64,000 nucleotides of DNA, taken from positions 3,344,606 through 3,408,605 of the forward strand of contig MU271144.1 in NCBI GenBank assembly GCA_021432605.1, given 5' to 3'. Shown here piece by piece: positions 774 through 64,000 of this stretch. Position 1 is the stretch's first letter. Every line of letters begins with the position of its first letter. This DNA comes from Coniochaeta sp. PMI_546 (Eukaryota; Ascomycota; Sordariomycetes; Coniochaetales; Coniochaetaceae). A model generated the notes under the pieces. It saw nothing but the letters and a program-made list of their open reading frames with translations, did no database searches and was not told the origin of the DNA. A program made the translations under genes and the position numbers.

Positions 774-1691
774 TTAAGTGGACTGGTAGTGAGCGACATA
801 GCCGACCTCCATCATGCTACCGTAGCCGTCCTGGGTGCTGCCATCTGGGTATCCGGGCTGTGTTATGCGGTTAGCGAGGAGAACTATGATACTCAAAAGG
901 GGAGAGAGGCAACTCACCCAGCTGCCACCGACAGCCACGTTGAGGATGAAGTATTCGGCGCTGTGAGCCAGGGAGTTCCAGACGTTCTGGTTACCAATAC
1001 GGCTGCCAGTGATCTGGTGGAACTGTTTGCCGTCCATGTACCAGGTGATGCTCTCGCTCTGCCAGCTCGAGGGAGTGCGGTCCCAGACGATGCGCCAGGT
1101 GTGCCAGCTCTGGTCCGGGATGGCAATGCTGCTGCCGATGCCATTGCCCTCGTTGCAGATACCGCCGGGATACACGTCGCAGTGGACGGTACCGTAGCCG
1201 GTCAGCTGACCGTTGATGGTCTCGAGCACGTCGAGCTCGCCGCAGGAGGGCCAGCTGCCGCCGTGTCGGAGCACGTCGCCCAGCAGCCAGAAGGCGGGCC
1301 AGATGCCCTTCTTGTTGTTGACCGAGTTGGTGCCGAAGCGGATCTGCGACTCGCCCATGGTCCGCTTTCCGGCAGCGGGGGTAAAGGTATACTTGGACTC
1401 GAGGCGGCCGGATGTCCAGCCTCCGGAGACAGAGCTGTCGCGCCAGGGCACGAGCTGGAGCGTACCGCCGCCGCTGTTCTGCACATTCTTGGTTGAGGAA
1501 GTGTAAGTCTCTAGCTCGGCATTGACGCCCAAGTTGCCGGTGATGATGTTCCACTGGCTCGTGTCCGGCAGGGTGCCGGATCCCCCAGGGAATGTGGACT
1601 GCCACACCCGGTTGTATCCCGAGTACTGGGGAGCGTCCCAAGCAAAGGCCACAGAGGCGAAGAGAGAAATGAGTGAGGCGTGAGTACGCAT
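774..1691 (-). CDS. Secreted GH16 family glucanase
   Basis: Glycoside hydrolase family 16 enzyme, by family expected to cleave beta-1,3 or mixed beta-1,3/1,4-glucans outside the cell. The start at 1691 gives a signal peptide (about residues 1-17, cut after AFA). The catalytic signature GELDVLETI follows the family ExDxxE rule, with Glu152 as nucleophile, Asp154 as helper and Glu157 as acid/base. The WPAFWLLG segment just before it is also typical. The spliced product is 285 residues. One intron, 917..858, has a GTGAGT donor and ACAG acceptor. It is exactly 60 nt and contains no stop, so an unspliced message stays open and gains 20 hydrophobic residues. Splicing restores the family sequence GGSW-PGYP. 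An in-frame ATG at 1760 exists but would bury the signal peptide. Exact substrate (laminarin, lichenin or wall glucan) cannot be read from sequence. Confidence 0.9.
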   Translation of the reverse strand: MRTHASLISLFASVAFAWDAPQYSGYNRVWQSTFPGGSGTLPDTSQWNIITGNLGVNAELETYTSSTKNVQNSGGGTLQLVPWRDSSVSGGWTSGRLESKYTFTPAAGKRTMGESQIRFGTNSVNNKKGIWPAFWLLGDVLRHGGSWPSCGELDVLETINGQLTGYGTVHCDVYPGGICNEGNGIGSSIAIPDQSWHTWRIVWDRTPSSWQSESITWYMDGKQFHQITGSRIGNQNVWNSLAHSAEYFILNVAVGGSWVSCLSPLLSIIVLLANRITQPGYPDGSTQDGYGSMMEVGYVAHYQST

Positions 1692-1722
1692 GGTGTCAAG
1701 GATAGACTTAGTAGTGAAGTCG

Positions 1723-1732
1723 GTATATATAC
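1723..1732 (-). promoter_or_regulatory. TATA-like element of the GH16 gene
   Basis: GTATATATAC lies about 32 nt upstream of the glucanase ATG on the coding strand. Both sequence and spacing suit a TATA box with a very short 5' UTR, but the transcription start is not known. Confidence 0.35.
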
Positions 1733-4700: not shown

Positions 4701-4757
4701 GACAGACAGCGTACTCCAAATTCTATCCATACCCGATCTCCGATCAGGCAAACATGG
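1733..4757. other. Intergenic, 3.0 kb
   Basis: No supported gene on either strand. Open frames are under about 135 codons, overlapping and without motifs or consistent splice sites. It probably holds the promoter of the minus-strand glucanase and the promoter or 5' UTR of the gene at 4758. Confidence 0.45.
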
Positions 4758-5694
4758 ATGCCTCCAACGATACCAGTTCTCGTCGGTATGTTCGATTCTA
4801 TAACTCTGTGACATGCCGGCCCAATCACTGACCCAGAGATGTATAGCCTCTTCGACGCCCGACATGGTACGAATGGAGCTTCCTTCGATAGTCCGATCAG
4901 TCTGCGAATGCCTGCTGACATATTTTGATCATCCTTCCAGACTACCTTCAACGACGCGGCAGCCTGGCCGACGAGGCCGAGCGAGCCATTATACTGCGCT
5001 TGGTGGACGGTGTACCCCAGAATTACATGGTATTGATGGGTACCGGCTGGCGCGGTTCAATCTCAAGCAACGAACGAAAAGAACCCACGGTGAAGCTCTG
5101 GTATGAGGCTGTCGAGGCCATGGTGAAGAATGAGAATTTCATGAACCAGCGTTGGTCTTTTCCCAGATTCCTTGACAGGTCGTTGCGTTGCTAACGAGAA
5201 GCGCTGTCACAGGCAAATTCTTAGCGGACTTCTACCGCGAAACATGGAAGAGCTTGTCGGAAGTGGAGCGCAAGGGTCTAAGCCGGACCGAGTGGATTAC
5301 TCTTCATCTGTCCAAGCAGTCTCATGAGGACGCCGAGCTAGCAGACCTGGGAGTTCAAGACAGCTTTCCAGTCTCTCAGGAGCTGAGATCGCAATACTAT
5401 GAGTTCGAACGCCGGTATGTTAAGGAGAATCCGTTCAGGAAAGCGGCTCAGCAGACTCATTTCGAGCACACACAGCCAGAGGCTGCGGAGCGTCTGCGGA
5501 AGGAAGATGCCGAGAAGATGGTCCTGACAGCGGTAGACTGGGCCATAATCGAAGACTTGGCTGCGAATGGAAAGGGCAAGACACCTTTCTTCTGGAACTG
5601 GGAGGATGATTTCGATGAAGACATAGAAGGTTACGGCATGACGGACGTCGAAGAGTCTACAGGGTCTACGACTCCAAGACAACACTATTGGTAG
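4758..5694 (+). CDS. Hypothetical protein, three exons
   Basis: Unrecognised protein, 239 residues in my model: exons 4758..4785, 4941..5150 and 5213..5694. Intron 1 has a GTATGT donor and a TTCCAG acceptor after CTGAC. Intron 2 has a weak GTTGGT donor but a good GCTAAC branch site and CACAG acceptor. Other donors near 5179 break the frame. The product is soluble, rich in Glu, Lys and Arg, and ends in an acidic, Trp/Phe-rich tail (FFWNWEDDFDEDIEGYG). There is no signal peptide, membrane segment or known catalytic motif. The last exon is the best supported. The first exon is short and could be wrong; a different frame starting at 4660 also reaches the first donor. No function is proposed. Confidence 0.5.
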
Positions 5695-6304
5695 AGTGCT
5701 TACAACAAGCGGCTTCTTGGCTGGTGGAACAGGCTATGGATACAATTGTGGATTAGACTCAATCTCATCAAAGTCAGAGGCTTCAAAATCTCGGCTTGAT
5801 CACCTCATCGGGCGGTGAAAGACGAGTATAGGGCTCTTGATAGATACGACACAGCCAGATTTGCTTCTTCCGGCATCCCAGCGCAGACCATAGGCTCCTA
5901 CCAAGAAAACAAAAACAAAACAGCTCTAACAGCCCCTACAATGCTCGGGTCGTAGTTCGCTTTGCTCGTTCGGTCTAGCTTCAAGTTTTGCCTCAGTGTT
6001 ACCGGATAATTAGGCCGTCGGTGCCGGGTGCTTCCGTGTCGACATACCGGGCAGCCTAAAGGGCTTTCCGTGCAACTTGACTACATGTGCCAAGTCCATG
6101 AAGTTCGTATTCATTTGACGAATCCCACGCGAGCGAGACAGAGTAAGGACCGGTGCTGGCATATTCTAGGGTGGACTCGGGGTTCGACTGCTGGTATAAC
6201 ACACCAATGTCCCGTCAACTTGCCGTTGTAGACTAAGCATATTGTGGTCAAGAACTCTCCCGCTTGTTCTTACAACTGCCCTTCGATCAAACTTCGCAAC
6301 GCCC
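5695..6304. other. Intergenic, 0.6 kb
   Basis: Nothing supported. This is the 3' flank of the hypothetical gene and the probable promoter of the small secreted protein gene. Confidence 0.45.
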
Positions 6305-6888
6305 ATGATGTTTTTCTCAGCTACCACGGGCTGGCTCATGACTTTGTCTTTTGTAGTGGGGTAGGTGAGAGCAAAATGTCCACGATTGTAACATTCAGCT
6401 GATACTTACTTTACACTTTAGCGCTACATCGGCCGTGATCGAGCAAGGCGAGGTGAACGAGTGTTCGCCAGATCAACCTAGCGCCATATGGACAACGACG
6501 ACGAGGACATCTATTCCTAGCACCAGCACCAAAATTAGTACCACAACGACCACAACTACTCTGCCGGCAAGTTGCACTTATAGGCCAACGCAAACAGACT
6601 GGGCCACAACTGGATGCGCCATCCCATGCCATCCGACTGGTTACTGTTATGCAGATTGTAAGTCGAATCAGATTTCAAGTCAGATGTGATATAACCAGGT
6701 CTGGGTGGTTTCTGATACGTACAGTTGCTCTTACTCTCCGGTGCGGGTGCCCTCGAATGCAGGTTCAGCCAACAACTACGACAATATGTCCTACCCAAAC
6801 ATCGTGTGTGCAATGCACAACCGGATGGGGCATAGCAATCATCACTGAATCGCCATGTCCCACGGTTTCTGCCACCGTATCTGCCTGA
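6305..6888 (+). CDS. Small secreted cysteine- and threonine-rich protein
   Basis: Spliced 151-residue protein from exons 6305..6360, 6422..6657 and 6725..6888. Intron 1 is GTAGGT...TTTAG (61 nt) and intron 2 is GTAAGT...TACAG (67 nt). All three exons join in one frame, although no single frame shows the whole gene. The N-terminus has a hydrophobic core (WLMTLSFVVG) fitting a signal peptide cut near residue 20-24. The mature part begins with a Cys, has a Thr/Ser-rich linker (about residues 40-60, likely O-glycosylated), then about ten Cys in CxxxC, CxC and CxxC spacings. The size, secretion signal and Cys content suit a wall-associated protein or an effector candidate; the sequence does not say which. 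A second ATG at 6308 is equally possible as the start. Confidence 0.65.
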
Positions 6889-8502
6889 AAGAAGAGTCAT
6901 GCGAAGCCATACAGGACATAGTAGGGAATGAGATACGGTTACAAAGTGAATAAGCAATTGACTATCTGTGACACTTACCCAACCCTGTGGCCCTAATTCT
7001 ACAAGACCTCGGCTTTATACGTAGGTTTTTGGTTGATATTTGAACATTATTCTCCTTCATGAAACATATACCAGTCTGCTGAGGCCTCTCAGTTGAGATG
7101 CAGGAAGTTCTTTCTCTACAACTCCTAATCTGAGTGCTTCCGTTACTAGGATGTGCCTTTGTCCTTAGAAGGTCCAAGACACAAGGATATACTGAAACTT
7201 CCCACGCCCATCGAAATCACATAACTTTTCAAAGGCTAGAGCTCGAACTGAGGAGGGGACAGAAGGGCCTCTTTCAGAGGTTGTTATATGATTCGGACCT
7301 TCTATCCCAAGACTTGGCAAGCTCTTCGTGTATGTCTAAGTCGCATGGAGTCGTCAGTACATAAGTCACGCGAACAAAAGTCACAGACTGCAAGACACTG
7401 ACCAGTGATTTGCAGGCCCTCTAATGTCGACTAGGGCCTCACCATTGACCGCTAACCCTCTGCCGCCTGCCGGCCCTCCTGTCGACCGCCAGATCTCCGG
7501 TCGGCCGCGCAAGCCCGATCTGGAACTTGGACCCCTCGCTTTCTGTACCGCGCCCCTCGTTTTCGTGACCATCGAACCCTCACGGGAACTTGCTAGCCTC
7601 ACCCGTTGCTTGTTGAGTAAGGTGGTCGATCCAAAGACCCACGCCTCTGGTTTCTTCCACAAACTTCAACTCACCTGAATCGATTTCTTTCTCCCCAACC
7701 CATAAAAGGTTTTGGTGAACAGGCAAGTGACTGCCCAGCTTATAATATTCTGGCAGCGGCTTAGACGCAGCCTCGCAGGAAGATCTATTTCTCTTGCCTG
7801 CCTTCTCAAGTTGTGCGAAGCTTCGCCATCTCCTTGCTGCATCTCCTTTGACGTCGTCACGACTCTGCCAGTTTCTGATTATCCCAGTACTGGAAGTTAT
7901 CATTCCCTCTCATCCTCAGTCGACACTTGTTGACGTTAAAAGCCGAAACCGGCCAGGCGAGATTAGAATTCGGCTGACAATCCGGACAGAGAGTGAGAAG
8001 CGGACTTTACTTCATTGTTGACATTCTCCGCCATTGAACCTGACTCTAACTGAAAAAGAACTCGCAGACTGTGTCTCTGACTCTTTGGAGTCATTCTGAA
8101 CGCGGGTTCCTCCTTCTGTTGTCAATCACCAAGGGAGTTGAGCTGCGATAGTCAAGACATCACCAGAAGGCTTGAATGTGAGTGCCCCCCATCTACATTT
8201 CAAGACACTTGGGCCAAGTGATATTGACGACAAGGAGCAGACACTACAGACAAAGAGGACGCTGTAGCGCTGGTAGTCTGAAGGAGATACTTCATTTCCG
8301 CCTGAGCCAGCCATTACTGGAATCAAGGCTAAGAAGAAGTGAGCAAGTAAGGCAGCAGTGTTGATCGTAAGTATTCCATCTCTAGCTCATTTTCTGGAAT
8401 AGCTCTCACTGGGACTGACTCTTGGAAGCTGGAAGCAACAGAGGTGACCAAACAGCAGTCAAAGATCGCCACCCCCTTTGAACTCATGAGCAAGCAATCA
8501 TC
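6889..8502. other. Intergenic, 1.6 kb
   Basis: No supported gene. Short open frames on both strands overlap without motifs. The right part may hold the 5' UTR of the gene at 8503, including GTAAGT-like sites near 8367 that could belong to a leader intron. Confidence 0.4.
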
Positions 8503-9693
8503 ATGTCCTGCCAACCTGGGCTGAAGGGCCTCTTTGCTGGCTTTCAGAAGAAGCCACAGGACATAGCTACAGGCCAGTACCGCTCAGAAGATACCGAAAA
8601 TCTCACAGCCGACTTCAAACCGAAGTTGTCATCCGGAGCCGGTACACCAGCCGATCCCATCATCCTAGAGAATGAAACCTTGCCTATCCGTACGCTGAAG
8701 CGCAAGCAGACCATAATCTTCAAGCCGATCCTCTCGAAGGACAAGGGAGTAGCTATGGACACTCCAACCAGCCCTTCTCACTCCGTTGGCGCCGCAAGCA
8801 CCTCTAGCACTGCCAGCACGATTCCTGCCAGCAAGGCCAACCGACCTGAAGTCCACTACTTCTGTTATGAGAGTAGGGCCTTGCACGGGAAACCCATACC
8901 TGGCAAGGACAAAAACGAGATCATCCTGGTCGGCTTCAACGACGATACCACGTTTGACCATCTCATCGAGACCGACCCTGGCACTATGTACAAGGTCCCA
9001 CGCCTCCACATCGCCAGCAAGGAAACGATACGTGAAGATGGTGACGTTACGGCCCGCATGGCCTCGGGTTACATCCAGCAGATCAAGCGCGGCATTCCCG
9101 CCGGTGCCACGAGCGGTGCCGACTCTCAGCTTGGCGACATGCCCCGTCTGACGATGGGCAAGATGAACACCAAGAACGGCGAAGAGTTCTTCATGCTCGG
9201 CGCCGATGACCTCATTGTCCTCGAACCTATCGATCCTCCGGGCTGGGGTGATGGCGGAGTCCCTTGGTCGGCGGATGGACACAACATATACCCATTCGCT
9301 CACATTGATCACTTTGACCGCACGCCGCTGAAGCACTTTGCCTGGGAGTGGCTCAAGTTCACTGACGTTCCCGTCTCGAGACCCCCTCCTGCCATTGCCG
9401 GCGTCCACATCTGGCTCATAGACTATGAGCTGAGGCGCAGTTCTGAACACCGCCAGAAGACCGAGGTTCAGGGCCACCGCCAGATCTTCTACGGTCGCGG
9501 CGTGCGCTTTGTCGAGGTGCGCAGGGAGGACAAGGAGTGGAAGGACGACAGGCATCCACGTGACTTCAGCCCCCTCAAGCAGGTCAGGCTCTGGAAGCAG
9601 CGTGTGAAGCTGGACGCGATCTGCGAGGTGGAGTACCAGTTCTACCACTGGCCGACGGTTGGCGTGCTTGCTTGCGAGATTGGGGACTACTGA
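8503..9693 (+). CDS. Hypothetical protein, single exon, 396 residues
   Basis: Uninterrupted frame of 396 codons with fungal codon preference (C or G at many third positions), so very likely real. I do not recognise the family. Residues 1-110 are low complexity, Ser/Thr/Ala/Pro-rich and probably disordered. From about residue 115 to the end it looks folded, with aromatic- and Asp-rich segments such as WGDGGVPW and HFAWEWLKF, and a basic stretch near residue 335-365. There is no signal peptide or membrane segment, so a cytosolic or nuclear location is likely. The opposite strand also holds a 352-codon frame, but its protein is Val/Leu/Arg-rich and featureless, as expected of a shadow. It converges with the protease gene at 9988. 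Confidence 0.7.
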   Translation: MSCQPGLKGLFAGFQKKPQDIATGQYRSEDTENLTADFKPKLSSGAGTPADPIILENETLPIRTLKRKQTIIFKPILSKDKGVAMDTPTSPSHSVGAASTSSTASTIPASKANRPEVHYFCYESRALHGKPIPGKDKNEIILVGFNDDTTFDHLIETDPGTMYKVPRLHIASKETIREDGDVTARMASGYIQQIKRGIPAGATSGADSQLGDMPRLTMGKMNTKNGEEFFMLGADDLIVLEPIDPPGWGDGGVPWSADGHNIYPFAHIDHFDRTPLKHFAWEWLKFTDVPVSRPPPAIAGVHIWLIDYELRRSSEHRQKTEVQGHRQIFYGRGVRFVEVRREDKEWKDDRHPRDFSPLKQVRLWKQRVKLDAICEVEYQFYHWPTVGVLACEIGDY

Positions 9694-33626: not shown

Positions 33627-35471
33627 CTATTTAATCACAAAGTCTGATGACAATTCATGGTCGCTTAACGCCTCGCCATACATAATACCCCGAACATAGG
33701 CATTGCCAACGAAGCGGAAGAAATCCTGGCAAGGACGCAGCACGACAGGCATAGAGTAGCCCGCTACAAGGCATAGTATATCTCCGACGTCACAGTCAGG
33801 CGGCCCAAGTCCTATATTGAGAGTTCCAAACAACAAGAGTCGACGACAAGGGCAATCTGACCAATGCTGAACCGTATGTATCATTACCTCCTGGAAGGGG
33901 TTCATTTCCTGGTGACGAGAGTCCTCTTCGTCACTACGTTCCAATACCTCCGTGTAGTAACGGGTATATTCCGAGGCACAGCATGCATCGTCCGTTAGCG
34001 ACCGGTCACTAGTAAGCGTTCGGCATAGCGTGTCGTCCAGCTCTGTATATCCACCCTGTGAGGGACTTGCCGTTCCTTGTCCGCTTCTTAAGTTATGTGA
34101 GAGAACAGCCTGCCTAATCCGGCGCAAGGCAGCTGTTGTCGTCCCCTCAATATCCACCACCGCCACAACACGATCAACAATGGCACCCTTGACGAGTAGG
34201 ACGGAGGCATCCAGTCCGGAGACGGACGGATAGCCATGATTATCTGCTCGTCTAAGAGGCCCAGAAGCTTCCCACTTGTGCCAAGAGACAGAAGAATTTG
34301 GAGGATAGATGACACCAGAGGGGCGAGACCATAATGTATAATCGGGTACCCAGGACGGTAGCCCCGGCCGAAAAAGATGTGAGCATCGAAAGTTTAAGAA
34401 CTCCAATGTGCCTTCGTTCTCAATGAACATCTTGGAAGCATTAGAGAACGCCCAGGCGACTGTTTTATCGTAATTAGGAACCATAATCCTAGCTGGAAAG
34501 CCTTCCATCGTTTTTACAAGACCAAGTAAAGAGTACACATGGTCTCGAGGATCTGTTGCCAAGCTATACTTTGACATGTCGAAGAGGTTATATAGATTCG
34601 TTTTTGGCTCCCCAACCCCCTGTTCTTGACGTAGTTCTGAATCTCGACCGTGATAGGACATCCTGATAGAATCGGGATTGAAGAAGGCGACAAAAGGTGG
34701 CGACACACCAGGAAAGCTAACCGTTGTTCCATGAATTCGAAGGTGCCGAAGACCCAAGGCGAAAGAACGCCAGATAATCTTACGAGTCCCGCAAATGATC
34801 ATAGGATCCGAATGCGGAACGGCAATCTCCTGCCTAATCCAAGCTCTGTACCAGTACGGTCTGAGGAGGATGTGTGAAACTGCCACTGCAGCCACCACTT
34901 GAGAAAACGACAGTCTACCTATAGGTAGTACGGTGGCATCTTCGGCGCTCCTCGCCAGCTCCTGGATGAGGTTCATTCCTGAATCGCTGCCCTTCCCTTC
35001 CGGGCCCAGCCAAGCTAAAACCAACGAAGCTCCTTGGTAGATCTGTCGCATGAGCTGGACCTGGTGTCGCCGTTCGACCTTGTCTGTCTGATTGATGCAA
35101 ACGGAATCTATCCACAACCGACGACTGGCCACTGGTGAGCGTAGATGCCGTAGGGCACAATCCAGTGACGCGGTAATCCATTGTTCATGGTGGTCAGTTG
35201 TGATTCTGCATTTCTGACTAGCGTCGCCCCATGTATATGACAGTGCTTCGTAGCTGCCCGGTTCATTCAACGGCACAGTTTGCAATGTGCATTCGAGCGG
35301 TTCCTCGCTGCGTCCGGCCAACAAAGTAACGATGCGGATCTCGCAAGTAGTCTCGTCTAGCGACCGATACAGAGAGGTTGGACTAGTCGCGTTTAAGTTG
35401 CCCTGACTTGTACAAAGCGACCCGCGATTATGAGGAGAAGATCGTGAAGTCATAACTGGCGTTCGTTCCAT
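33627..35471 (-). CDS. HET-domain protein (heterokaryon incompatibility)
   Basis: 614-residue intronless protein with an N-terminal HET domain, the TIR-related effector module that triggers cell death or allorecognition in filamentous ascomycetes. The domain's three signature blocks are present: YEALSYTWG (residues 74-82), RLWIDSVCINQ (118-128) and MRQIYQGA with the following ASLVLAWLG (141-156). The WIRQE motif follows near residue 210. The C-terminal part is the usual poorly conserved region of HET proteins, ending with GDILCLVAGYSMPVVLRP and FRFVGNAYVRGIMYGEAL, which recur in this class. There is no NACHT, WD40 or ankyrin repeat, so this is a stand-alone HET protein of standard size. The frame is intact. 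It lies 18 kb from the subtilase/NLR region, with housekeeping genes between. Confidence 0.93.
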   Translation of the reverse strand: MERTPVMTSRSSPHNRGSLCTSQGNLNATSPTSLYRSLDETTCEIRIVTLLAGRSEEPLECTLQTVPLNEPGSYEALSYTWGDASQKCRITTDHHEQWITASLDCALRHLRSPVASRRLWIDSVCINQTDKVERRHQVQLMRQIYQGASLVLAWLGPEGKGSDSGMNLIQELARSAEDATVLPIGRLSFSQVVAAVAVSHILLRPYWYRAWIRQEIAVPHSDPMIICGTRKIIWRSFALGLRHLRIHGTTVSFPGVSPPFVAFFNPDSIRMSYHGRDSELRQEQGVGEPKTNLYNLFDMSKYSLATDPRDHVYSLLGLVKTMEGFPARIMVPNYDKTVAWAFSNASKMFIENEGTLEFLNFRCSHLFRPGLPSWVPDYTLWSRPSGVIYPPNSSVSWHKWEASGPLRRADNHGYPSVSGLDASVLLVKGAIVDRVVAVVDIEGTTTAALRRIRQAVLSHNLRSGQGTASPSQGGYTELDDTLCRTLTSDRSLTDDACCASEYTRYYTEVLERSDEEDSRHQEMNPFQEVMIHTVQHWSDCPCRRLLLFGTLNIGLGPPDCDVGDILCLVAGYSMPVVLRPCQDFFRFVGNAYVRGIMYGEALSDHELSSDFVIK

Positions 35472-37502
35472 GGGACTTCATGTCTTTTCATGATACCTGA
35501 GCAACAACAAGATGGCTATTTCACCTCGGGTACGTTTTTCCAAACATGCTCTCCGGTCCCTATGTATGATAAGGTGGCAATATAATCCTGACCAGTCATC
35601 ACAACCTATCGCCTACCACAACAATGGTTTCTGTTGCACACCTAAGATTGTTGCATAGTCCTTGGAACAAAAGCCTATCGAAAATGGTCTGATGATCACA
35701 TTGTGTAACAGGCTCAAGCTCCTGTACTCGGTGTTCGGTAACATCTGGGCTCACTGGGGCCTGGGCATTCATTAGAGGGGTTAACATTGGCACCATCAAA
35801 CACAACGACCTCGGCGAGGCTATAGCGTCACTTTGTCCGAATCCTCTCATCTCACTAGCTCTGAAGGGGTGTTTTGAGTATGTCACTGAACTTCCTCTGT
35901 GGCTGCTGCCCGCTGTGTACGTCAGGCGCTCGATCTGAGTACGTCGTCTAGTAAAGGCACAGTAGTTGCTCTGTGGATGTACAGTGATGCTAAAAGGTGA
36001 AGGGAAGCATACCCGACAAGGAACTCGAATACTCTGTTTGTGTGACATCTGGATGACTCTTTTATGATAGGTAATTAGCGCTGTTCTAGCATGAGCTTTC
36101 AAATGTAAGTGACGCACCATCATTTCACATCATGTATTCATTCGTAGCGGAATTACGTGTGATGGGTTCTAGGAAACATAACAGTCACTAGTTTGATTCT
36201 CATCTGGCATGACGACTTCTCCGCCCCCAACCTCCGGGGTTTATAGCACATCTTGGGTTAATAGGATGAACAGCGGCTTTGGCTCACACCTTGTGGGAAA
36301 ACGATGTGGTGATTATCCGTAAGTGTACAATGGCGCGGATGGACGGCGTACCATATGGAAGTAGTTCATCGCTTCTACGTGTACTATTAGTAACTGTAGA
36401 TAAATGTCGTCTGTAGTCATTACCATCAACCACCATGAGACACAGGCACTTGTCGGATCGTCTTCAATCTCTGGCAAGACGGCATTCATAAGTGTCACTG
36501 AATATGAAACCATCTCTACAACATGGGCGCAGATGAACCTTCCGTTGCTGGCATTGACGACTTCTTCCAACACCCTTATAAGGCTCCCTACCCGGCACTG
36601 ATCTGCTTCAAGGTCGCCAACACATAGTCGCGTTTGGGCCCAGATTACAGAGCTGGAGGGGTTGCCCCTGCCCAGGCCTCCTGCTGTCTTCGAGCGTGAT
36701 GTGTTCACCTTGGCTATTTTCGTTTTCATTATCTCCGCTGTGACTTTAGTGCTTGGATGGCATGGTCGAAGCATCACAACGGGGAGGTAAAAAGTCGATG
36801 GCATTGGTGTAAGCACTCCAAAACTGCCCATACGAAGTAGATTATAGGTCACCTGCCCAACGGCTAACAGCGCCGCCATTTGCGCGTCAGCATATGAAGA
36901 GAGTTGCACATCATTGAATAAGTATATTGAGTGGACCTAATACCTGCCAGGTGCAGTGGAAGCAAGAAGTGGCTGAAGTTTGAGCTATCGTCATCTTTAT
37001 GATTCTGCTCGTGCAGCAATCGTCTCACTGCCATGGTATCAAGTAAGTCAGTAAGTACCCCTGAAGGTCAAACGCCCACGCAAAGCTTCGAAGGTGAGTT
37101 TGTCTTTGCAGTGTCGAGACCAAGTGTGCAGGACAGGGAACGGATCGGCCCCTCCCGGTTTAACACCATGTAGATTCGCAGCCGATCCAAGTAACCGCCG
37201 GATCCTGTGAACTGAGGTCATGTTCGGCTCAAATGACTGGAGATATTTGGCTCTAGGTAGTGAATAGGTCAGATTAGGTGAGTGTAGCAAATCAAGTTGT
37301 GGAGCAGGTCAAATGAGCACTAGTCTGAAGACGTGAATAGATGTAAAGGGAGACATCTCCAGTGACCAGACATGTCGAGACATGTGAATCGACACATCAA
37401 GTGAACGTCAATCTGATGACCAAGCATGATAGATTAAGGTCTGTTGCCTGCCTTATGGGAGGCATCTCCTCCTTCACCTCCATGTAATGATACCTTGTGT
37501 TG
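35472..37502. other. Gene-poor stretch, 2.0 kb
   Basis: No firmly supported gene. A 198-codon open frame on the minus strand (36313..36909) lacks a good start, motif or splice partner, and a 65-codon frame also runs on the opposite strand within it. A 174-codon minus-strand frame (35599..36123) looks random. Either could be chance. Confidence 0.35.
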
Positions 37503-53553: not shown

Positions 53554-56500
53554 TTACTCCTCCCTCATCAGCTCATCAGCCAATTCACGCATAAGCAGGA
53601 TCCATCGATCCTTGGTCTCCTTCTCCGACTTCTTGAGCGTGTTGTTCTTCCTCAGTCCAAAGCGGTTCCAGACTAGGATATACTTGTGCTCGCTGGCCTT
53701 GTCCAGCCCAATCCGCTGCAGGGCCTCCTTCATCCGCTCGTGCTTCTTCAGCGCCAGATACTCCTGGAAATACTGAGCCTCCTCTTTCTGGTTGCCGTCC
53801 GCCTTAACCACGCCGCCGAGTTGCACACAGTACAACACGATAGCGGCTAGGCCCGACGCGAGCGCCGTGGCCACGGAGGAGCCCGTCAGAGGTGTGAATT
53901 TGGTGACGTTTCGGTCGTCGTGGCGCTCCAGGACGACTTGGTGACCGGGCATGATGAAGTCGACGGCCGACTGGTCGCCTACCCACTTGTATGCCGCACC
54001 TGAGGCTTCGGCGGCGCCGATCTTGAAGATCTTCTTGGTTCCGCTCGCGGCTGGGTAGGTTCTGTCCCTGTAGGCGCCCTGGTCTGTTGCCGCACAAAAC
54101 ATCAAGATGTCCTTGCTTGCAGCCAGTTCAATGGCTTTTTCTAGCTCGTCGATGTCCGACTTGTTGAGTTCCGTCCGCTCAATTGTCCAAGACATTGAGA
54201 TGATATCGACGCCTTTGTCAATGGCGGCGCGGACGGCCTGCGAGCTTGTCAGATACCGCTGTGTATGAGCTCTAGTGTCAAATATACAGGTGACTCACCT
54301 TAGCCGCACTCTTAGCTGTGATGGTTCGGCCGCCCGATGCGTCCAGTTTGTCGTCCAGTTTCAGCACAAATAGCTTCACGTTGGGGCATAGCTTGCAAAT
54401 CAAGCCCGCCATGGCTGTGCCATGGCCGCCGCTCGACACGTAGTACGGCTGGTTTAGGTTCTGATCTTCGTTGCGATGACAGAAACTCCGTCCACCAATG
54501 ACGCGTGACTGAACGCTCGCCTCATTAATATCGACTCCGTCGTCGACAACCGCCACCAACACAGGCCGCGGAAGTGTGTAGGGTGGATCCGCATTTCTCT
54601 CGGCTGTCAACAGGAAATCCGAGAATTCCTCCATTGTAGCTATCCATTTGTGGCGCATGTAGGGGTCGTTGACCTCGTTCGGGGCGGCAGCGGTGGACTC
54701 TCCTGGAGCGCCCCTAATGCCATCGATGCGAACCTTGATCTGGTTCTCTGATCGCTCAGGGGCACCCTCAATACGCTGCTTGAAGGCAGTAGTGTACTGG
54801 GCGATCCTTTGGCGGGATTCAAGACCCTGTTTTGCAATCAGACTGTTATGTTCATTGTCAAACAGCACCACGAAGGGGGGGAACTAACCTGGTATGGGTG
54901 CAAGTGTATGGTTTCCAGCTTCTTGAGCTGCCTGAGCCCGTCAAGCTCGCTCCATCCGCGAAGTACAGTATGGTTGCCGCCCCAGTACAGGTGGATCTCC
55001 CGCACATCCGGAGCCACTTTCTTGATGACTTCTGGAGAGATATCCATCTTTCTCCAGTCCCAAATCTCCACACCCACGCCATCTAGGCACTCCTCAATGG
55101 CCTCGTCATGGTGAGCTGGCTCCTGTAGGTCATCAACTATAACCTTCAAGATCGTTTTGACTTTCTTCTGTTTGTCATCCTTCAGCCAGCTGAAGATCAG
55201 CTTCAGGTCGCTGCGACCCTTGGCGTCTGGCTTCGGCGGTGGCCTGTTTCCCTTGACGACCACCGGTTTGCCCTCTATCCGGACCTGAGGTATCGCTACA
55301 TACTGCAGAATATCTTCAAATTCCAGGTGTCGCAGACTGTCCTGCATCCGGGTCTGACTGAGGCTGGGGCTACAGCCGAAGAGGTCGAAATAGATTTGAC
55401 GGTCTACCAGATGGTGTTAGTTCTGCACTTGAAGTCTATCGTCGACTAACATGTTGCTGTGTCTAAGTTGTAGAACAAGGGGGAGCTTACCTTGCTGGAC
55501 TCCGTACAAGAACTCGATAGCATCGTCGTGGTTCTTTGTCCGCAAGCAGTACAGCTTCAGATACTTCTTGATATTCCTGGCGCTCTCTTCGGTAGGCACG
55601 ATCTTGGATACTCTCGACTTCTTCTTACCGTCCGAACTCTTCTTGGTTCTGGTACCGGACACCTTGCCATTGACGTCTGGTGCATTCTTGTCGCTTTTGC
55701 TTTCCAGCTTACTTCCAGTCTTGGTCTTAGACAGCTGGCCCGGCTTCGGAGCGGCGTCACCAGCGGCTGTTTTTGGGGCCGCCGACCCGAACTTTCCTGT
55801 TGGCGCTGCCTCGCTCTTGTTGGGCATCTTTGATCCAAGCTGGGAAGGCATCTGTTCCGCGGCAGTCTGCTGTCTTGGCCTGATTGGGGCTGCCTCTCTC
55901 AAGCTTTTGGCGTTCTGCTGGCCATTCGCCGATGAGCCTGCGTCCTTCTTCTCAAGCATCTTCTTTTTCGCATCTCTTGCAGCCTTTTCCATGCCTTCTT
56001 GATACGTGAGCTCGTGGTACCTATAGGCGGACAATAGGCCCATCTCCCTGTGCTCGTAGGTCTGGTCCATGGCCTGGGGACATCTCTCTACAATGCTCTT
56101 GACGATACCTAGTTGGGTATCGTCAGACCTCAGATAGTCGACAGCCAGATGGAGTGGAGTAAGTCCGCTCTCGTCCTTGGCACAGAGGGTCTCGGGGCTT
56201 GACTTGTCAATCATCAAGGTGATCAATTCGGCGTTGGTCGATATCTTCAGCTGAAGAGCCTTTTGTAGGGAGTTTGTTCGCTTAGACGGAAGTTTGATAA
56301 CACTGTCGATGTCCGGGTGCGCCTCGCACATTGCCTTGGCCAGTTTATGATCTTTGGTAGCTATGGCACAATACAGCGGCGTCTTATCGTCGGCATCCTG
56401 TTGCGCCAGCAGGTCCCCTTCAGGCCACGAAGTCGTAATGAGAGCCTTGACAAGTTTTTTGGTCTTCTTGTACCAGTCCTTCGAGCCGGCGGACTCAGCC

Positions 56501-56820
56501 AGTAGATGCAGCAGGTTTTGGTTCTTGCTCGTTCTCTTCCCCAAGATATTCTCGTGCTCTGCAAGAAAAGCATCGAGGTTGGCTTGATTGTCGAGCGTCA
56601 GCTCGTTGTCCTTGATCTTCCTGATGAAGCGGTCGAAAGTGTCTCCTAGATCCTCTTCTTCGTCATCGGACCCAGATTCACTATTATTGACCTCATCTGC
56701 CGACTCTTCCCCGTCGTCGTCGGAGACGTCGGCCACACCGCGAGACGAAGCCTCCTCCGGGCTCATGATTCGTGTGGGCGAAGAGTTGTTTGAAGCAAGT
56801 TTTGTTGCCGTGGCATGCAC
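53554..56820 (-). CDS. Intracellular ankyrin-subtilisin (S8) protease
   Basis: 1018-residue protein from exons 56820..55491, 55403..54889, 54826..54299 and 54237..53554; introns are 87, 62 and 61 nt, all in frame. The N-terminus is acidic with no signal or pro-peptide. Degenerate ankyrin repeats lie at about 90-280 (DKTPLYCAIA, SGLTPLHLAVDY). A Lys/Ala/Gln/Pro-rich linker follows (about 290-410), then a conserved alpha/beta region (about 410-615), and the subtilase domain from about 690. Triad: Asp710 (VAVVDDGVD), His750 (GGHGTAMAG) and Ser912 (TGSSVATALASG). The oxyanion position, normally Asn in AAGN, reads AATD (Asp843). DIISMSW and the Pro-containing GxYPAASG-like loop are typical. Met19 (56766) is an alternative start. 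Fungal subtilases of this intracellular, repeat-bearing kind act in cell-death and allorecognition systems; here that role is inferred. Confidence 0.88.
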
Positions 56821-57808
56821 CGCCTTGTTCAGGGTGTACAGTATACAGACGTATAAGTCGGACAGCAGAACAAAACGACAGAGTTACGAACTTGGCGATA
56901 CGTTGCGATAAAGTGTCAGTTTGGCTGGAGAGCTCAGCACAGGCGGGAAAGGGTCCCGACTAAGGCTTCTGGCCCCCACCACACCCATAACGGCTGGCAC
57001 CCACACCGTTGGTGCTCCTGGTGCTCCATGGTGCATCCATGATCATTCTTGCAACTCGCTACTGTGGTACACATAACTCCGCAGTTCCCGCAATCCCTTG
57101 ATCCATGTCACGCCCCGGCCCGCAGGATCCAGGACCCTGTTCAGCCCCGCTGGGGACGCTGGGAATTTGGAGCGAGAAGCCCTCGACACGATGGACACGA
57201 ACCACCGTATGTATCGTAGTAGCGCATAATTTCCGTGCTGACTGCATGAACAACTCTGTGACTGGTCCTCTGCAGCCTGGAGCCTGCAGCACACTGCTGA
57301 CTGCATAAAGCGCGAAGCTGATCAATCCGTCCAACTGGCCGTGGTGAAGTAAGCCTGAAGCCTGGTAGTAACCAAAAGAGATGACGAGTTACTTTAACAG
57401 CAACCTTTTAACAATGATACGTAGAGCTTGAATACGAATGAAGGTTTGCAGTGTAAGAACGACAAATTTGTTGATTGCGTGCTGAATACAGAAAGGGCCT
57501 AGCGTATATCGCAAGCTGTGGAGAAAGGTACGAGTAACGTGTACACGTACACTACATGATCGCTGCCGAATTTTCAAAATGGACATTGCAACGCTTGGCC
57601 CCCATAAGCTCTACCTTACCACAGTCCTCTCCCTGACCAGTCGTACCATACATCCTCAGGTTCAAAAAGAGAGTGCAATAGTGGCCGCAGAGTTGCCCGG
57701 TCACCCAATCAAGTCATCCGGCCGATAAGTCGTCTCATCCTTCCGTCTTCTCATCTTCTCGTCGTCTCGTTGTCGTCTTGTCGTCTCCTAGTCGCCTGAT
57801 CGTGCCCG
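56821..57808. other. Spacer between protease and small partner gene
   Basis: About 990 bp between two minus-strand genes. It holds the protease promoter and the 3' flank of the 57809 gene. No gene supported. Confidence 0.5.
57729..57794. repeat. Imperfect GTC/TCT simple repeat
   Basis: A run of imperfect GTCGTCTC / TCTTCTC units, pyrimidine-rich on the plus strand and purine-rich on the minus strand. It lies immediately downstream of the minus-strand gene ending at 57809. Related TCGTCT words recur at about 59160-59220 before the NLR gene. Confidence 0.6.
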
Positions 57809-58735
57809 CTATTTCTCAGAAGGGTTCGTAAATGTGACCAGGTTTAGCTCCTGAAGGTCGATTTCTCCGAGATTGTCCGTGTCGTATTTCCGCAACTTGT
57901 TTGTCGGTGGCATGCTCGGATCGTAGATGATCGGATCATCTATAGGCGTTTTGCCGAAGAGACTGGCAAAGCGGCTGACCATATCCGCCGAGACCTTGAT
58001 GTCGAAGCTGCTCTCAAACTCACTGTCATCTTCACGCTTGAGTAGGACAGCCGTCCGGAAGAATGCGGGCACTCCAGTGTGGGTGGACTTGTTCTCCATC
58101 AAGGTCCAAGAGACCGCATTAGGCGCACCGTAATTGCGACCTTTCGTGTCGATGGTTCCGACAATGGTTGTGGCATCCGTCGTCTCGCGGCTTATGGTCT
58201 TCTCCCACTTGACCGTTCCTCCCAGTTCGGCTCCAAACTGTGCTGCGCCCAGTTTGCCTTCCGCGCTGTTGGTAGTAGACTCTGTCTGCTTCGTCTGCAC
58301 CAGTGTCATTCTGCCCTTGGGAGCAATCTTGAGGACCTCGGGCTCGCTGCCGCCATTTCTCGGGGAGAAGAGAAATTTGGCATCGACAGAGATGATGCGC
58401 CTTCCAGGCTTGCGCGGATCAAACTGGAACTCGTAGATAATGAGCGTGGCCGGTTCCTCGCCGTCCTTCAGATATCCGTGGATGACATCTTTGCCAACAC
58501 ATCGAACATCAATCGCTCCTTTTCTTTCCGTGATGTTGTTTCGCTGTTGCGGTCTGGCAGGGTCATTCTGGAACCTGAAGCCGCTGCCATCGTCACCACC
58601 CTCCTCGAGCCCGACTTCGAACCCGAATAGGCCCTCGTCAACCTCCAGTTCACCAAGGCTACTGTCGGTGTTGTTGTCCGTCATCTGAGCGTTTGTCAAG
58701 ACCGACTTAGACCAAGTGTTTGGCAAGATGTTCAC
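57809..58735 (-). CDS. Unknown 308-residue protein, beta-rich, EF-hand-like C-terminus
   Basis: Single-exon protein of no family I can name. Residues 1-70 are acidic and Asn/Gln/Gly-rich, including EGLFGFEVGLEEGGDDG. Residues 70-250 look like alternating beta strands (PATLIIYEFQFD, RRIISVDAKFLFS, VSWTLMEN, RTAVLLKR), with no signal peptide or long hydrophobic helix. Near the C-terminus, DTDNLGEIDLQE (about residues 284-295) fits a 12-residue EF-hand loop at positions 1, 3, 6, 8 and 12, with Leu at position 5 where a ligand is expected; it may be coincidental. It lies 990 bp upstream of, and collinear with, the ankyrin-subtilase, and head-to-head with the NLR-like gene. That context suggests a substrate or effector in the same pathway, but the sequence alone proves no function. 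Met18 is a possible alternative start. Confidence 0.75.
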   Translation of the reverse strand: MNILPNTWSKSVLTNAQMTDNNTDSSLGELEVDEGLFGFEVGLEEGGDDGSGFRFQNDPARPQQRNNITERKGAIDVRCVGKDVIHGYLKDGEEPATLIIYEFQFDPRKPGRRIISVDAKFLFSPRNGGSEPEVLKIAPKGRMTLVQTKQTESTTNSAEGKLGAAQFGAELGGTVKWEKTISRETTDATTIVGTIDTKGRNYGAPNAVSWTLMENKSTHTGVPAFFRTAVLLKREDDSEFESSFDIKVSADMVSRFASLFGKTPIDDPIIYDPSMPPTNKLRKYDTDNLGEIDLQELNLVTFTNPSEK

Positions 58736-59483
58736 AGGACTCAGGTGAAGTAGAGGTGTATGAAGTCAGTTATCCTCCTCTTGCTTCATACGGTAGAACG
58801 GGGCCGCCCTCTCTTTTCAGCTTTCGTCGTCTCTTCTACCTCAAGTCTGTCTCGAGAAGTGCTCGTGCTCGGGCCTGCCGAGGGCTGGGACGAGAACATC
58901 AGCCCCGATCAGTCTACACGGCCCCCAATGCTACCCTCCTATCAGTCAGCTTGGGCCCTGTTGGGGTGGAAACACCATCTGTAACGGCAGGCTGCAGCAC
59001 TAGCGCTTACCTGAACTGCCCGACCATACCTCGTCGTCACTCGGCATATCATTCGTCTGCCAATGTGGGCGTCCAAGCTTCCGACGTGTGACACGGTCTT
59101 CTTGTCTTCCACTATGCGGACAACAAGTGGTGTAGTTCTTGGATTGCAATGTTCTCAGTGCGCCTATTCGTCCGTTCGTCTACCGCAGTAAGTCGTCTGG
59201 ATTCGTCTCTTCGTCCGGTGGTTGCATCGAGGTACCACGCTAACATGCATTATCATGCAAGAGAATCCTGCACGACACCCCAGCCGCAGACCCCACAGTC
59301 AGGTCTCTGTGAATCCTGCCACGCCTGACATGCCTGACAGGGTCAGAGGGCTGTAGTTCTGCGCAAGCGGACGACCTAAACAATCAACACAACACTGAGG
59401 CAAAGACTAACATGGCATAACTATCCGCAGTCGACCATCGCTTCACTTCGCCGACCTTTGTGGAACAGACCAATCTTGACAAG
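58736..59483. other. Divergent promoter of NLR-like gene and partner
   Basis: 750 bp between the start of the 57809-58735 gene (-) and the start of the NLR-like gene (+). No gene supported. A shared control region would allow co-regulation of both. Confidence 0.5.
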
Positions 59484-62400
59484 ATGTCTGACTCCTCCTC
59501 CAGCTCTTCGACAGCTACAGATCGAGATGCCAGCTCTTCTGCTGCTCCGGAGCCGGGCTCCCTTGCTGCCGAGTTAGATGGTTACGAGGAGTACATGGCG
59601 GATGACGCCAAACCCCCAGAGTATGGAGCAGAAGGCTTGACAGTCCTTTGGCAAGCCCAGGATGGAGACGATTCGTTCGCGCGAGAAAGGTTGCCAGTCC
59701 GTGACTTTGAGTAAGATGGTCGTGCATTCTTTCGTGGCTTCATCCCATGCCCTTGAAGAGACATTTGATCTGACCTCCTCAAAGCATTGTTGTCGTACAT
59801 GGTCTTCATGGCGCACGACGTCCGCCGTGGAAGAATCCCGGCTCCGGCGACAGTAGCTGGATTCATGAGCTCGGCCGTCAGAGTGGTAGAAAGGTCATGT
59901 CCTTTGGCTATGCCGCTCTTCACATACTGTCTGGGTTCAGAACCTGGGAGTCTATCCGTCGCACTTCCATCCGTCTCTTGGAGGACTTGAAGAAGGCGCG
60001 CGCGACTGCTGCCAAAGTGTGTAGTCAACCCTTCCAAGCATTCTGTTGCCACATCCTTCTTACCGTCTCGCCTTTTCCACCGCGTATGTCTAACATTGAC
60101 TCGGCAGGCTCGGCCGATAATGTTTGTAGCTCACGATATCGGCGGTATTATCGTGAAAGACGTAGGTCTTACGGCACCATCACGTTCTCGAAAATCATGG
60201 ATTCGAGGAATGCTCATGTTCTCTTTAGGCACTTACTTTTGCAGGCCTGTATCCCAGCTTGTACGGGGAGATATTCGACTACACTCGTGTCCTCGTGAGT
60301 GAAGATTAGAGTCTGCTTGCGTGAGCGTTTTGCGTGTTAATGCCCTTAAGGTCTTCTACGGCTGTCCGCACCAGAGTGTTGATCGCCTGGATATGGAGGA
60401 CAGGCTGTCTCGATTCATGCTGAGCCACTTCGACCGCAATGCGCCGCAGCTTCAAGGAACTTTAGCCTCTGCTAAGGGATTGACCACGGCCGTTCTTGAC
60501 ATCAACCACCTTTTCATCGATTCCAAGCATGTATATCGGTCTCATGTGATAAGTGTGTACAATGATGACGACAACAGCCAAATCGACAAGGTCGGACATA
60601 CATTCAAGCCTTCTGCTGTGGTAGTTAGTACTGACATCGGACGTACACAGGTATTTGACAGTTTTGCCGGGACCCTGAGAGTTCCGTTCGAAAGACGGAT
60701 CGCCGGCGGGGTCTCACAGTTGGAAGATATGGAAGTTATCGAACCTCATCTTGTCAAGATCCACTCACGTAAGTTCAATGTCCCAGTCTCGTGATTGCTG
60801 CTAGGACAACGACGTTGACCATTATGGGGCCTCAGAGATCTATCCTAATGACTCTATACTGGAGCAGGAGAGAACTCTACTCTCAATCGCTCGGCCAACG
60901 GCTGCGTTGGCAACAGCCGATCATGAGAACCATCCGTTTGCCTGGATTGCGGAGAACGAGACCTACAAATCTTGGTCCGGGCAAAAGGTTCCCCAACTGC
61001 TGTATCTCCATGGTTCGTCTGGCGTCAAGCGTGCCGCCGAGTTTGCATTCTATGACCTCGATAATAGCTTGCGCGGGAAGGACAACGTCAATGAAATGGT
61101 CTTGTACTTCACATTTGATCGTCATGACATACGACACGACACAACGGAGGACATGCTCACCACCTTCTTGGCTCAGATTATCTGCCATAACCCGAGTCTG
61201 TCCGAGTTCGTTGTCAATCAGTTCGAGCGGCTGGCTATCGACCGCAGTTGGTCAGATTATGACTTGCTCACGTGGTTTGAGTACTACCGCGTTCGTGGGC
61301 AAGTGGACGGAGTATCTTGCGTCATCAATTGCTTCGAGGAGTGCGAGGAAGAGTCGCGAAAGGAGTTCTTGAAGCTGGTTACTAAGCTCTCCAAGACCCA
61401 TGAGCGGCCCTGGAGAATCATTGTCACAAGCCGGCAACGTGGTGCCTTGTCTGAGGAACTGAAAGACTGGCCGTCGATCGATCTCGATGTCACGACGCGC
61501 CCAACCAAGAAAGCAACAATCGAGAGGTCCACTGACCTGTGGATAACTTCCAGCAAGCTTCTTCGCTTACGACCAGAACTCAGAGATAATCCATCAGTCG
61601 ATGCAGAGCTGAAGAAGATTTCACAGCTAGATGTTTCAGTCCGGACCTTGGCGCTGGCTCAAGTTAGTCGTCACAGTACATGGCCACGTGAAGAGACGGT
61701 CGAGTCGATCCTTGGACCAGGGGCGGATTGTTCCATCTCCTCGATCTTCGATCGTGTGGTTTCCGCAATTCCTGGGCCCGAACGTGACCTCGCACTTCGT
61801 GCCCTGTCCTGGATAGTCTGCGCACCGAGGCCGATGACCGCATGGGAACTCGGAATGGCCCTGTTTATTGGCAGTGAGGGAGATGATGGCCAAAGAGCCA
61901 CTACGCCTTACGGATTTGTTGAAGCCGTCATTCCGAAAATCGTCGACTGGTTCGCGGGGTTCGTTGTCTTGGAGATACATGAACTGCGGCTTACAAGCCC
62001 AGGTTACAGACAACTGCTGAAAGACAAGGCGGAGACCATTCCCAAGTGGCGCGGCATGTTCGTTGAGGCAGTTAACAAGGATATTGTCGAGACTAGCCTA
62101 AAGTTCTTGCTCCGACCTGCAGTCAAAAAGGTCCTGGAAGACGTCTACGGCAAGGGGAAGGAGAAGTCCGGTGTGATGGAGCTACCAAGCTTAAGCGATC
62201 GATCCAACTTTTGCAGCTACGCGGTGCTCTACTGGGTGGCTCATCTTCAACAAATTCCCGCTGATCTCAGGCCGAGCGGCCTCCTCCACGAATTCATCAA
62301 GTCCGACTCCGTTCCTATCTGGTCCAAGGCTTACTGGGCCCATGCGAATCCCATCAAGAGGAGCCCAGAGTTCTTCCCGTCTATCTATCCCATCCTAACC

Positions 62401-64000
62401 GGCCGTGGCCTTGGGGACTTGGCTGAGCCACTTCGCGAGAATGACGACGATATATCGGCTGGCTTGATAGAAGCGTGCCTGAACGGGTTGCCACTGGTCG
62501 TCAGTAACCTACTGAACCGCATTCAGCATAGCGAGAAGGCTCTTCAACAGGCACTGATTGCAGCTGGATCTAATGGTCACGAAATGATCTGGAAGCAAGT
62601 TATTCACCACGTGAGGGAACGCCATGACGACTTCGCCTGGCCTCCCTCTTTGTTGTCGCGAGCAGCTTGGCTCGGTCTCGAAGATATTGTTTCGGAGCTG
62701 CTTGAGGTTGGCTGTGATCCAAATCCACTAAATACCATTCAAGGAGCTACGCCGCTGCACCTCGCTGCTCGTAACGGTCACCGTGACGTTGTTAAGGTGC
62801 TGTTAGACCACAAAGCGGACGCGAAGCATACCGGACAGTACGGTCGAACAGTTATTCACGTTGCGACCGTTTTCGGCCATTCCGATGTCGTCGAGCTGCT
62901 GGCTAAGGAAAGCGACGTTGATATCAATGCGAGAGATGAGGATAACGTCACCGCGGTCTACGTTGGCAGCCTCTGGGGCAACTGGAAGGCCGTCGAGACA
63001 CTGTTGAAGCTTGGCGCTGACCCGGACATTGGCGACAGGGCACCCGGTCTGCCTCAGTGGAATCCCCTGGTCTCTGCCGTCGAAGAAGGTCATACTCTAT
63101 GTGTCCAAGCGCTACTAGAGGCAGGAGCGGAACCAAACTTCATCGGGCTTGACGGCACTCCTATTCGGTATGCGGTCAGCGCTGGGCGTCTCGACATGTG
63201 TCGCATGCTGATCGACAAGGGTGCCGATCTTCATCATCCCAACATAGACCCGCCAATTTTGATGTACGCGATCAACAGTCCACGCATGGAGGACGCCGAA
63301 ACCAGACTGGAAATTGTCAGGCTTCTTCTCAATCACGACGCAAAGCTCGATGTGGTCGATGAAGATGGCGAAACACCTCTGATTCGAGCTTGTTGCTCCG
63401 GAGACAAAGAGATTATTCCACTCGTGTCGTACCTCCTAGGTCGCGGGGCGGACATCAATGGACTCTCATCCAATGGGGAAACAGCATTGCGTCTTGCCGT
63501 GAGACAACGGAATCACGAACTTGTCAAATTCTTGATAGAGAAAGGCGCCAGTGTCAACCCTACGAACAAGGACGACATCGGTCCAGGTTCTCCCCTGCAT
63601 ATGGCTGTCTATAACACTGAGATGTTAAGACTGCTACTGGAACACAAAGCCGATGTGACAGTGAGCAGTGAGACGGTGCCATCAGCGCTAGTAATGGCAA
63701 CTATTGCGAACAGACTGGAGAGTATACAACTCCTGTTGGACCATAACGCACCGCTGGAGGACCTGGATCTCAAATTCGACAGATTCACGGCTCTCGCTTA
63801 TGCTGCTAATTACGGTTATGCGGATGCGTTCCGGCTGTTAGCTGATGCGGGAGCCAACATCAACCACACTGTCTCGAAGGGACGCACAATCCTCCACATA
63901 GCGGTCAACGAGGACTCTCTACCTGCCTGTCTCGAGTACCGCCCAGCTGTCGATGTTCAAGACGAGGAAGGGAATACACCACTGCACCTCATAGTGGGGT
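59484..64000 (+). CDS. NLR-like protein: alpha/beta-hydrolase, NACHT-like core, ankyrin array (partial)
   Basis: Runs off the window; at least 1387 residues are present. Exons 59484..59710, 59785..60016, 60108..60161, 60229..60294, 60351..60768 and 60836..>64000; introns are 56-91 nt, all in frame. Residues 1-50 are Ser-rich. An alpha/beta-hydrolase domain resembling the fungal SesB/lipase-like NLR effector covers about 70-260 (IVVVHGLHG; nucleophile elbow VAHDIGG with Asp163 in place of Ser; VLVFYGCPH). The NACHT-like core from about 375 has a P-loop region LYLHGSSGVKR (388-398) lacking the GK[S/T] end, a Walker B-like VINCFEECEEE (495-505) and sensor IIVTSR. Ankyrin repeats run from about residue 965 to the window edge (TPLHLAARNGHRDVVKVLL and about ten more). 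Two intervening exons are only 54 and 66 nt. Fungal NLRs of this plan mediate non-self recognition. Confidence 0.88.

Follow-up and report, generated by a model that had tools for sequence, protein, structure and literature searches.

Does a three-gene locus near the end of a 64,000-nucleotide stretch of the Coniochaeta sp. PMI_546 genome (33.5 Mb) encode a cell-death device, and if so, by which protein would the cell be killed? The stretch, called the window below, spans positions 3344606-3408605 of contig MU271144.1 (here C2). The locus comprises genes for a subtilase with ankyrin repeats (ANK), a small protein called the partner, and a protein resembling NOD-like receptors (NLRs). We consider it fairly probable that the trio is a protease-triggered pore-forming device, built like the gasdermin/protease pairs, with an executioner of predicted hemolysin-type fold and a pseudo-NLR as regulator; cleavage, pores, death and the role of the NLR-like protein are inferred.

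The trio and its recurrence

The gene models are predictions in which open frames were joined at canonical splice signals. The three genes are intact, adjacent and open, in the following order (window positions):

53554-56766, minus strand: ANK-subtilase gene, 1000 amino acids, four exons (56766-55491, 55403-54889, 54826-54299, 54237-53554)
About 54562-53833, minus strand: Peptidase_S8 domain, subtilase residues 686-908 (Pfam, E 5.1e-24)
57809-58684, minus strand: partner gene, 291 amino acids, single exon, predicted hemolysin-type fold (from the frame and a structure model)
58685-59483, no strand: interval of 799 bp separating the start codon of the partner gene from that of the divergent NLR-like gene
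59484-64000, plus strand, running on to 65391 (1391 bases past the window): NLR-like gene, 1828 amino acids, seven exons (59484-59710, 59785-60016, 60108-60161, 60229-60294, 60351-60768, 60836-65061, 65128-65391)

The partner stop and the subtilase start are 1042 bases apart. The adjacency described by the sequence-only reading, with protease and partner collinear and the NLR-like gene divergent, was therefore recovered with all frames open. The divergence from a shared interval also held, but the size given for it, 750 bp, did not. A partner of 308 residues was rejected: the stop-to-stop frame has 318 codons and no ATG upstream of the start of the 291-residue protein, so the longer form has no start.

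Searches of predicted proteins returned 68 rows with the partner as query (one of which is the window protein), 59 with the subtilase and 33 with the NLR-like protein. The closest partner homologue among the named sources was from Coniochaeta ligniaria (92% identity). Two homologues were called as lying on the same contig when the longest contig reported for both had an identical size, and two of the three homologue searches scored part of their candidates. Partner and subtilase homologues shared a contig in at least 19 cases, partner and NLR-like homologues in at least six, subtilase and NLR-like homologues in at least six, and all three in at least two (Hypoxylon sp. NC0597 and Diaporthe citri). 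With the sizes offset by 1 to 1000 bases in both directions as a control, only 0.0045, 0.003 and 0.0015 coincidences per offset were obtained for the partner/subtilase, partner/NLR-like and subtilase/NLR-like combinations, respectively. At least 23 of the 68 partner contigs were linked to a subtilase and/or an NLR-like gene; this is a lower bound because many of the 68 contigs are short and candidates were scored partly.

A shared contig is not the same as adjacency where contigs are large. Consecutive locus tags of partner and subtilase were found in six cases: Diaporthe citri, Pestalotiopsis fici, Xylaria curta, Nemania sp. FL0031, Nemania abortiva and Annulohypoxylon nitens. The tags of partner and NLR-like gene were consecutive in Diaporthe citri, where those of all three genes follow one another, and in Pyricularia grisea. 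One tag separates subtilase and NLR-like gene in Conoideocrella luteorostrata and Apiospora kogelbergensis. Distances among partners and among subtilases were correlated (r 0.91, for 14 of the 19 linked pairs), which common descent alone could explain.

The partner query also found two distant relatives in the same genome, on contigs C15 (E 2.7e-9) and C9 (E 0.004). A family profile built without them scored these at 1.7e-16 and 1.6e-14, respectively, in six-frame translations of the fetched loci, and profile-profile comparison with the partner family gave probabilities of 97.3% and 97.9%. The C15 paralogue forms a divergent pair with a CHAT-domain gene, the sole CHAT match in the whole genome:

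L014 (C15:357300-367299), 563-4160, minus strand, and 4513-5436, plus strand: divergent pair of CHAT gene and partner paralogue

About 0.6 kb separates the C9 paralogue from the closest open frame of an S8-type gene. Pieces of this protease gene gave sub-threshold matches to Peptidase_S8 (E 0.005 and 0.009), and the Asp, His and Ser motifs are present. Its resemblance to the window subtilase family extends outside the catalytic domain (E 3.2e-7; L015 1696-2247), and the subtilase homologue P0069, used as query at E <=0.001, matched only the C16 and C9 genes outside the window gene. All of the three partner-family genes found in this genome adjoin a protease, while a random place would lie beside one with a chance estimated, by our own arithmetic, at about 1% (about 27 protease loci, namely 25 S8 loci merged from 35 matches, the C9 gene and the CHAT gene). 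No further partner-family member was detected below E 0.35 in 10-kb stretches at 18 of the 24 other S8 loci, the remaining six being covered as short loci.

Two observations on linkage weigh against the proposed device. In Coniochaeta pulveracea, partner and subtilase lie on one contig, but their tag numbers differ by 66. On its other flank, the C9 paralogue adjoins a gene with hydrolase, NACHT and ankyrin parts and the motifs HSLGG and GSGKST that belongs to an array and is only distantly similar to the window NLR-like protein. Its hydrolase piece was not among the matches to that protein (E <=0.001); a hydrolase piece about 5 kb deeper in the array (C9:738237) was the second-best match outside the window NLR-like gene (E 3.1e-9). 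Therefore, clear duplication is limited to the protease/partner pair, and the NLR neighbour is weaker evidence than the protease. The array itself (L015, L038, C9:727600-747599, and C9:762909) has NACHT-like matches at 735330, 739430, 743644 and 762909 with hydrolase and ankyrin parts, and its first gene keeps both the P-loop and the hydrolase serine.

The pairing of protease and partner is well supported, and their neighbourhood is no accident. The co-occurrence check proposed for the three families was borne out in that linkage recurs in other ascomycetes, and together with the paralogous copies in its own genome this agrees with a trio that forms a unit with conserved pairing.

The protease is of the kind expected in such a pair. 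Its catalytic Asp, His and Ser are kept in 57, 56 and 54 of the 60 aligned rows, the remainder being gaps apart from one Tyr and one Lys, and Pfam Ank_2 scores 29.9 bits against a cut-off of 27.3. HET-Q2-like (Q2L) proteases are described as an intracellular S8 domain combined with ANK, TPR or WD40 repeats in PMC10197012. The subtilase, with its S8 domain joined to ANK, fits this definition. An intracellular S8 protease with its catalytic residues thus adjoins a small effector candidate, as in the gasdermin/protease pairs.

Predicted fold of the partner

The partner matched no Pfam family above the cut-off; weak matches to DUF6414 (E 0.022) and EF-hand (E 0.11) were disregarded. Its structure model is predicted to have a hemolysin-type fold. 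The first 50 rows of the fold comparison all belonged to the alpha-hemolysin/leukocidin class of beta-pore formers, and the model contains the beta-sandwich cap, rim and stem hairpin of that superfamily. The structure check therefore gave a modelled pore-former fold and no housekeeping fold. In the alignment behind the family profile, which held 54 of the 68 homologues, Pfam Leukocidin (PF07968) scored weakly (E up to 1) in eight sequences, the best at E 0.001. The parts of the model that matter below are:

58577-58684, minus strand: acidic N-tail, residues 1-36, candidate pro-segment (low model confidence, net charge -11)
58148-58315, minus strand: long beta hairpin, residues 124-179, candidate membrane stem (model strands 124-143 and 158-179; tip glycine-rich and of low confidence)
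57812-57952, minus strand: conserved C-tail, residues 245-291, candidate inhibitory piece (after a low-confidence linker, 236-244)

Several results speak against this fold. All PF07968 matches were sub-threshold (best 19.4 bits, cut-off 22.4), the window partner itself had none, and presumably chance families scored similarly (ECD in 4 of the 54, best E 0.0013; DUF6414 in 5 of the 54, best 0.0099). The partner profile found no hemolysin among the PDB sequences. Foldseek TM-scores by query length were low (0.19-0.30) with large root-mean-square deviations, and the match depends on E-values, VIA Z and consistency. A second model, from an alignment of 40 of the 68 homologues and the two paralogues, was weak (pLDDT 61.6) and had most of its alignment in common with the first; its Foldseek search gave one hemolysin row (E 0.001) and then unrelated beta proteins. 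In addition, polar/hydrophobic alternation is slight in the first hairpin strand and is seen in core strands as well.

These results bear on the possibility that the partner forms no pores and, with its hemolysin-like beta-sandwich, regulates the subtilase or is its substrate, for instance as a sensor that binds lipids or proteins. A shared fold shows no function, and the hairpin, with its low-confidence tip and no clear amphipathic pattern in its first strand, fits such a protein. However, conservation is as high in the hairpin region as in the core, residues 152-161 alternate polar and hydrophobic, and the pairing with CHAT as well as S8 genes fits a cleaved effector better than the partner of a single protease. 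We regard a non-pore regulator as unlikely.

A stored cytoplasmic toxin against predators (nematodes or other fungivores), with the subtilase processing it or controlling self-protection, is improbable to the same degree. It would have a precedent in Coprinopsis P450139, described as cytoplasmic, nematode-toxic and similar to leukocidins by HHpred over 75 residues (PMC6434838). The partner likewise has no obvious signal peptide by a crude hydropathy test, and a hydrophobic start was seen in one of the 68 homologues; in this it departs from the secreted superfamily. Against such a toxin, self-directed death clusters of fungi show just this layout, a recurrent linkage to S8/CHAT and NLR-like genes, and the same type of protease adjoins gasdermin-like genes in this genome. 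Among bacteria, three matches to one pattern were obtained for relatives of the partner, none of which was confirmed, and PADLOC gave no match.

Under the preferred reading, a protease-triggered pore former, the 291-residue partner would be a cytosolic pro-form of alpha-hemolysin/leukocidin type. The ANK-subtilase would act as sensor and activator, perceiving the trigger via its ankyrin region, and would remove one tail of the partner, either the acidic N-terminal or the C-terminal one. Loss of the tail would free hairpin 124-179 for membrane insertion, and subunits would assemble as a beta-barrel, upon which the fungus's own cell would die. The candidate cut pieces are of 4.8 kDa (residues 1-45) and 5.4 kDa (residues 245-291). 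HET-Q1 is reported to lose a C-terminal fragment of about 5 kDa to its protease (PMC12881547). Because partner residues up to 261 align inside the hemolysin fold, a cut beyond 261 or at the N-terminus would be as likely as a C-terminal cut of the HET-Q1 kind.

The protease slot and the NLR-like gene

The sequence-only reading had proposed a comparison of the partner with gasdermin-like and other effector folds. Of the S8 loci, the one on C16 gave the best single match to the subtilase; it is adjoined by a 313-residue frame whose only PDB matches at E up to 10 were three, all to the fungal gasdermin RCD-1 (E 0.05 to 0.41). Related frames occur in the S8 stretches on C17 (E 4e-6) and C18 (E 0.015). 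Taken alone, the C17 frame had no gasdermin match in the PDB, and the C18 frame had the HET-Q1 pore first at E 0.2, together with unrelated proteins. The profile of the three frames found RCD-1 at 6.5e-10 and HET-Q1 at 3.4e-5:

L036 (C16), 6051-6989, minus strand: gasdermin-like frame near S8 gene (joint profile)
L020 (C17), 8405-9388, plus strand: gasdermin-like frame near S8 gene (joint profile)
L022 (C18), 5699-6595, minus strand: gasdermin-like frame near S8 gene (joint profile)

Judged by these profiles, this genome has gasdermin-like genes in the S8 slot. The partner profile matched theirs with a probability of only 1%, indicating that the same protease slot holds two small proteins unrelated by sequence within one genome, and no gasdermin was found by the partner profile among PDB sequences. 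On sequence grounds a gasdermin identity of the partner was therefore rejected.

A highly diverged fungal gasdermin, which would make the cluster an ordinary pair of het-Q1/het-Q2 type, is accordingly very unlikely. The partner is in the same size class, beta-rich and beside S8/CHAT proteases, and according to PMC10197012 about 63% of the gasdermin genes of fungi have an S8 gene next to them and 19% a CHAT gene. However, the profiles failed to match even though the gasdermin profile of three sequences finds RCD-1 and HET-Q1, and the first 50 fold rows were of the hemolysin class; gasdermins were absent among the 50 rows shown per partner model, although absence from such a list does not amount to exclusion. 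Chance adjacency in a gene-dense region, conceivable since fungal genomes are compact, was rejected as hardly credible on the linkage in other species and the protease-flanked paralogues in the same genome.

In the preferred reading of a protease-triggered pore former, the third gene would supply the regulator. The NLR-like protein consists of a hydrolase-like part, an NPHP3_N/NACHT-like region, ankyrin repeats and a C-terminal cysteine cluster, which we take to be ZZ-like. PF24883 is above the cut-off in the window gene at C2:3405545-3406039, and the homologue P0128 (Coniochaeta sp. 2T2.1) scores 63.3 bits for NPHP3_N (PF24883) and has ten stretches of Ank_2. An NPHP3_N/NACHT-like region followed by C-terminal repeats is the architecture of an NLR. 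Two motifs are unusual in alignments of the homologues:

60132-60146, plus strand: nucleophile elbow of the hydrolase, HDIGG, with Asp where a serine hydrolase has Ser
61012-61035, plus strand: degenerate P-loop GSSGVKRA, without GK[ST]

The elbow Asp is present in 25 of 25 readable sequences among the 33 homologues, in place of the serine nucleophile, and GK[ST] is absent from 32 of 32, so that the P-loop consensus GxxxxGK[ST] is lost throughout. A broken gene was rejected since all exons are open and the odd motifs are kept in homologues; the conserved motif losses indicate a pseudo-receptor family and not a decaying gene. A nucleophilic Asp at the elbow position occurs in other hydrolases, so some enzymatic activity of the hydrolase-like domain is conceivable. 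As regards the earlier idea of an NLR with a hydrolase effector, the domain layout stands, while the P-loop and hydrolase serine of an ordinary NLR are missing. The pseudo-NLR, with no P-loop, no hydrolase serine and a long ankyrin array, may tune the protease as a scaffold, a decoy or a brake; without a nucleotide switch, scaffold or brake would be more likely than trigger.

Elsewhere in the genome, NACHT-like and S8 matches lie about 3.4 kb apart at C5:982678-987000 (L034), where no partner-family gene was found. Within the window, a HET-domain gene (PF06985, E 3.1e-31) occupies 33627-35477 on the minus strand, about 18 kb from the trio, and to the left of the window, at a distance of about 14 kb, lies a further NACHT-like match (C2:3330483). 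Non-self-recognition genes may thus be numerous around the trio.

Meaning and comparison with known systems

We judge it an even call whether ascomycetes have a second lytic death pathway, independent of gasdermins, in which a cytosolic pro-form of alpha-hemolysin fold would be released by S8 or CHAT proteases under a P-loop-less pseudo-NLR, with executioners of unrelated folds exchanged in one protease slot within a genome. The protease/gasdermin gene pairs themselves are already known in fungi and bacteria (PMC12881547). Fungal pore-forming executioners named in the consulted passages of reviews and studies are HeLo-type and Goodbye-type domains and gasdermins. Among the literature matches listed, none named a leukocidin/hemolysin fold for fungal death clusters, the nearest being the paper with the Coprinopsis anti-nematode protein. 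Nor did these matches or the consulted passages tie an ascomycete hemolysin-fold protein to S8/CHAT proteases, with subscription papers and supplements outside the search. The words leukocidin, hemolysin and aerolysin have no occurrence in PMC9815663, PMC10197012 or PMC12881547.

If the proposal is true, a class of bacterial-toxin proteins serves regulated death inside fungal cells, and the protease module would be a general switch for different pore formers. The trio supplies a pair that can be tested directly and a new family of receptor-like proteins lacking a P-loop. An uncharacterised protein beside a fungal S8/CHAT gene should be modelled and not presumed to be a gasdermin.

The closest known system is het-Q1/het-Q2 of Podospora anserina, which the protease/partner pair resembles in layout, as had been suggested: in both, an intracellular S8 protease and a small beta-rich protein are encoded at one place. 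The Podospora genes are described as idiomorphs at one locus (PMC12881547), whereas those of Coniochaeta stand side by side. The partner is also unrelated to gasdermins by sequence, and a third, NLR-like gene is linked. The C15 pair, in which the partner paralogue and a CHAT gene are divergent, recalls the fungal CHAT/gasdermin pairs, but its small protein belongs to the partner's family and not to the gasdermins.

The alpha-hemolysin/leukocidin superfamily (PF07968; staphylococcal, clostridial and Vibrio toxins) shares with the partner the predicted fold, the long stem-like hairpin and the sub-threshold PF07968 scores among homologues. Vibrio cytolysin is activated by proteolytic cleavage according to PMC6434838. 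Unlike these toxins, the partner is fungal, has no obvious signal peptide, and carries an acidic N-tail, an extra conserved C-tail and a linked protease of its own. The Coprinopsis cinerea P450139 is likewise a cytoplasmic fungal protein similar to leukocidins; it was compared by description only, as an anti-nematode protein of a basidiomycete for which the consulted passages of PMC6434838 name no protease or NLR partner. HET-S/NWD2 and related clusters are alike in that an NLR gene is clustered with a pore former (PMC12881547 and PMC9815663). They are described there as using a HeLo-domain effector and amyloid signalling, whereas the Coniochaeta trio combines a predicted beta fold with a protease and an NLR-like protein without P-loop.

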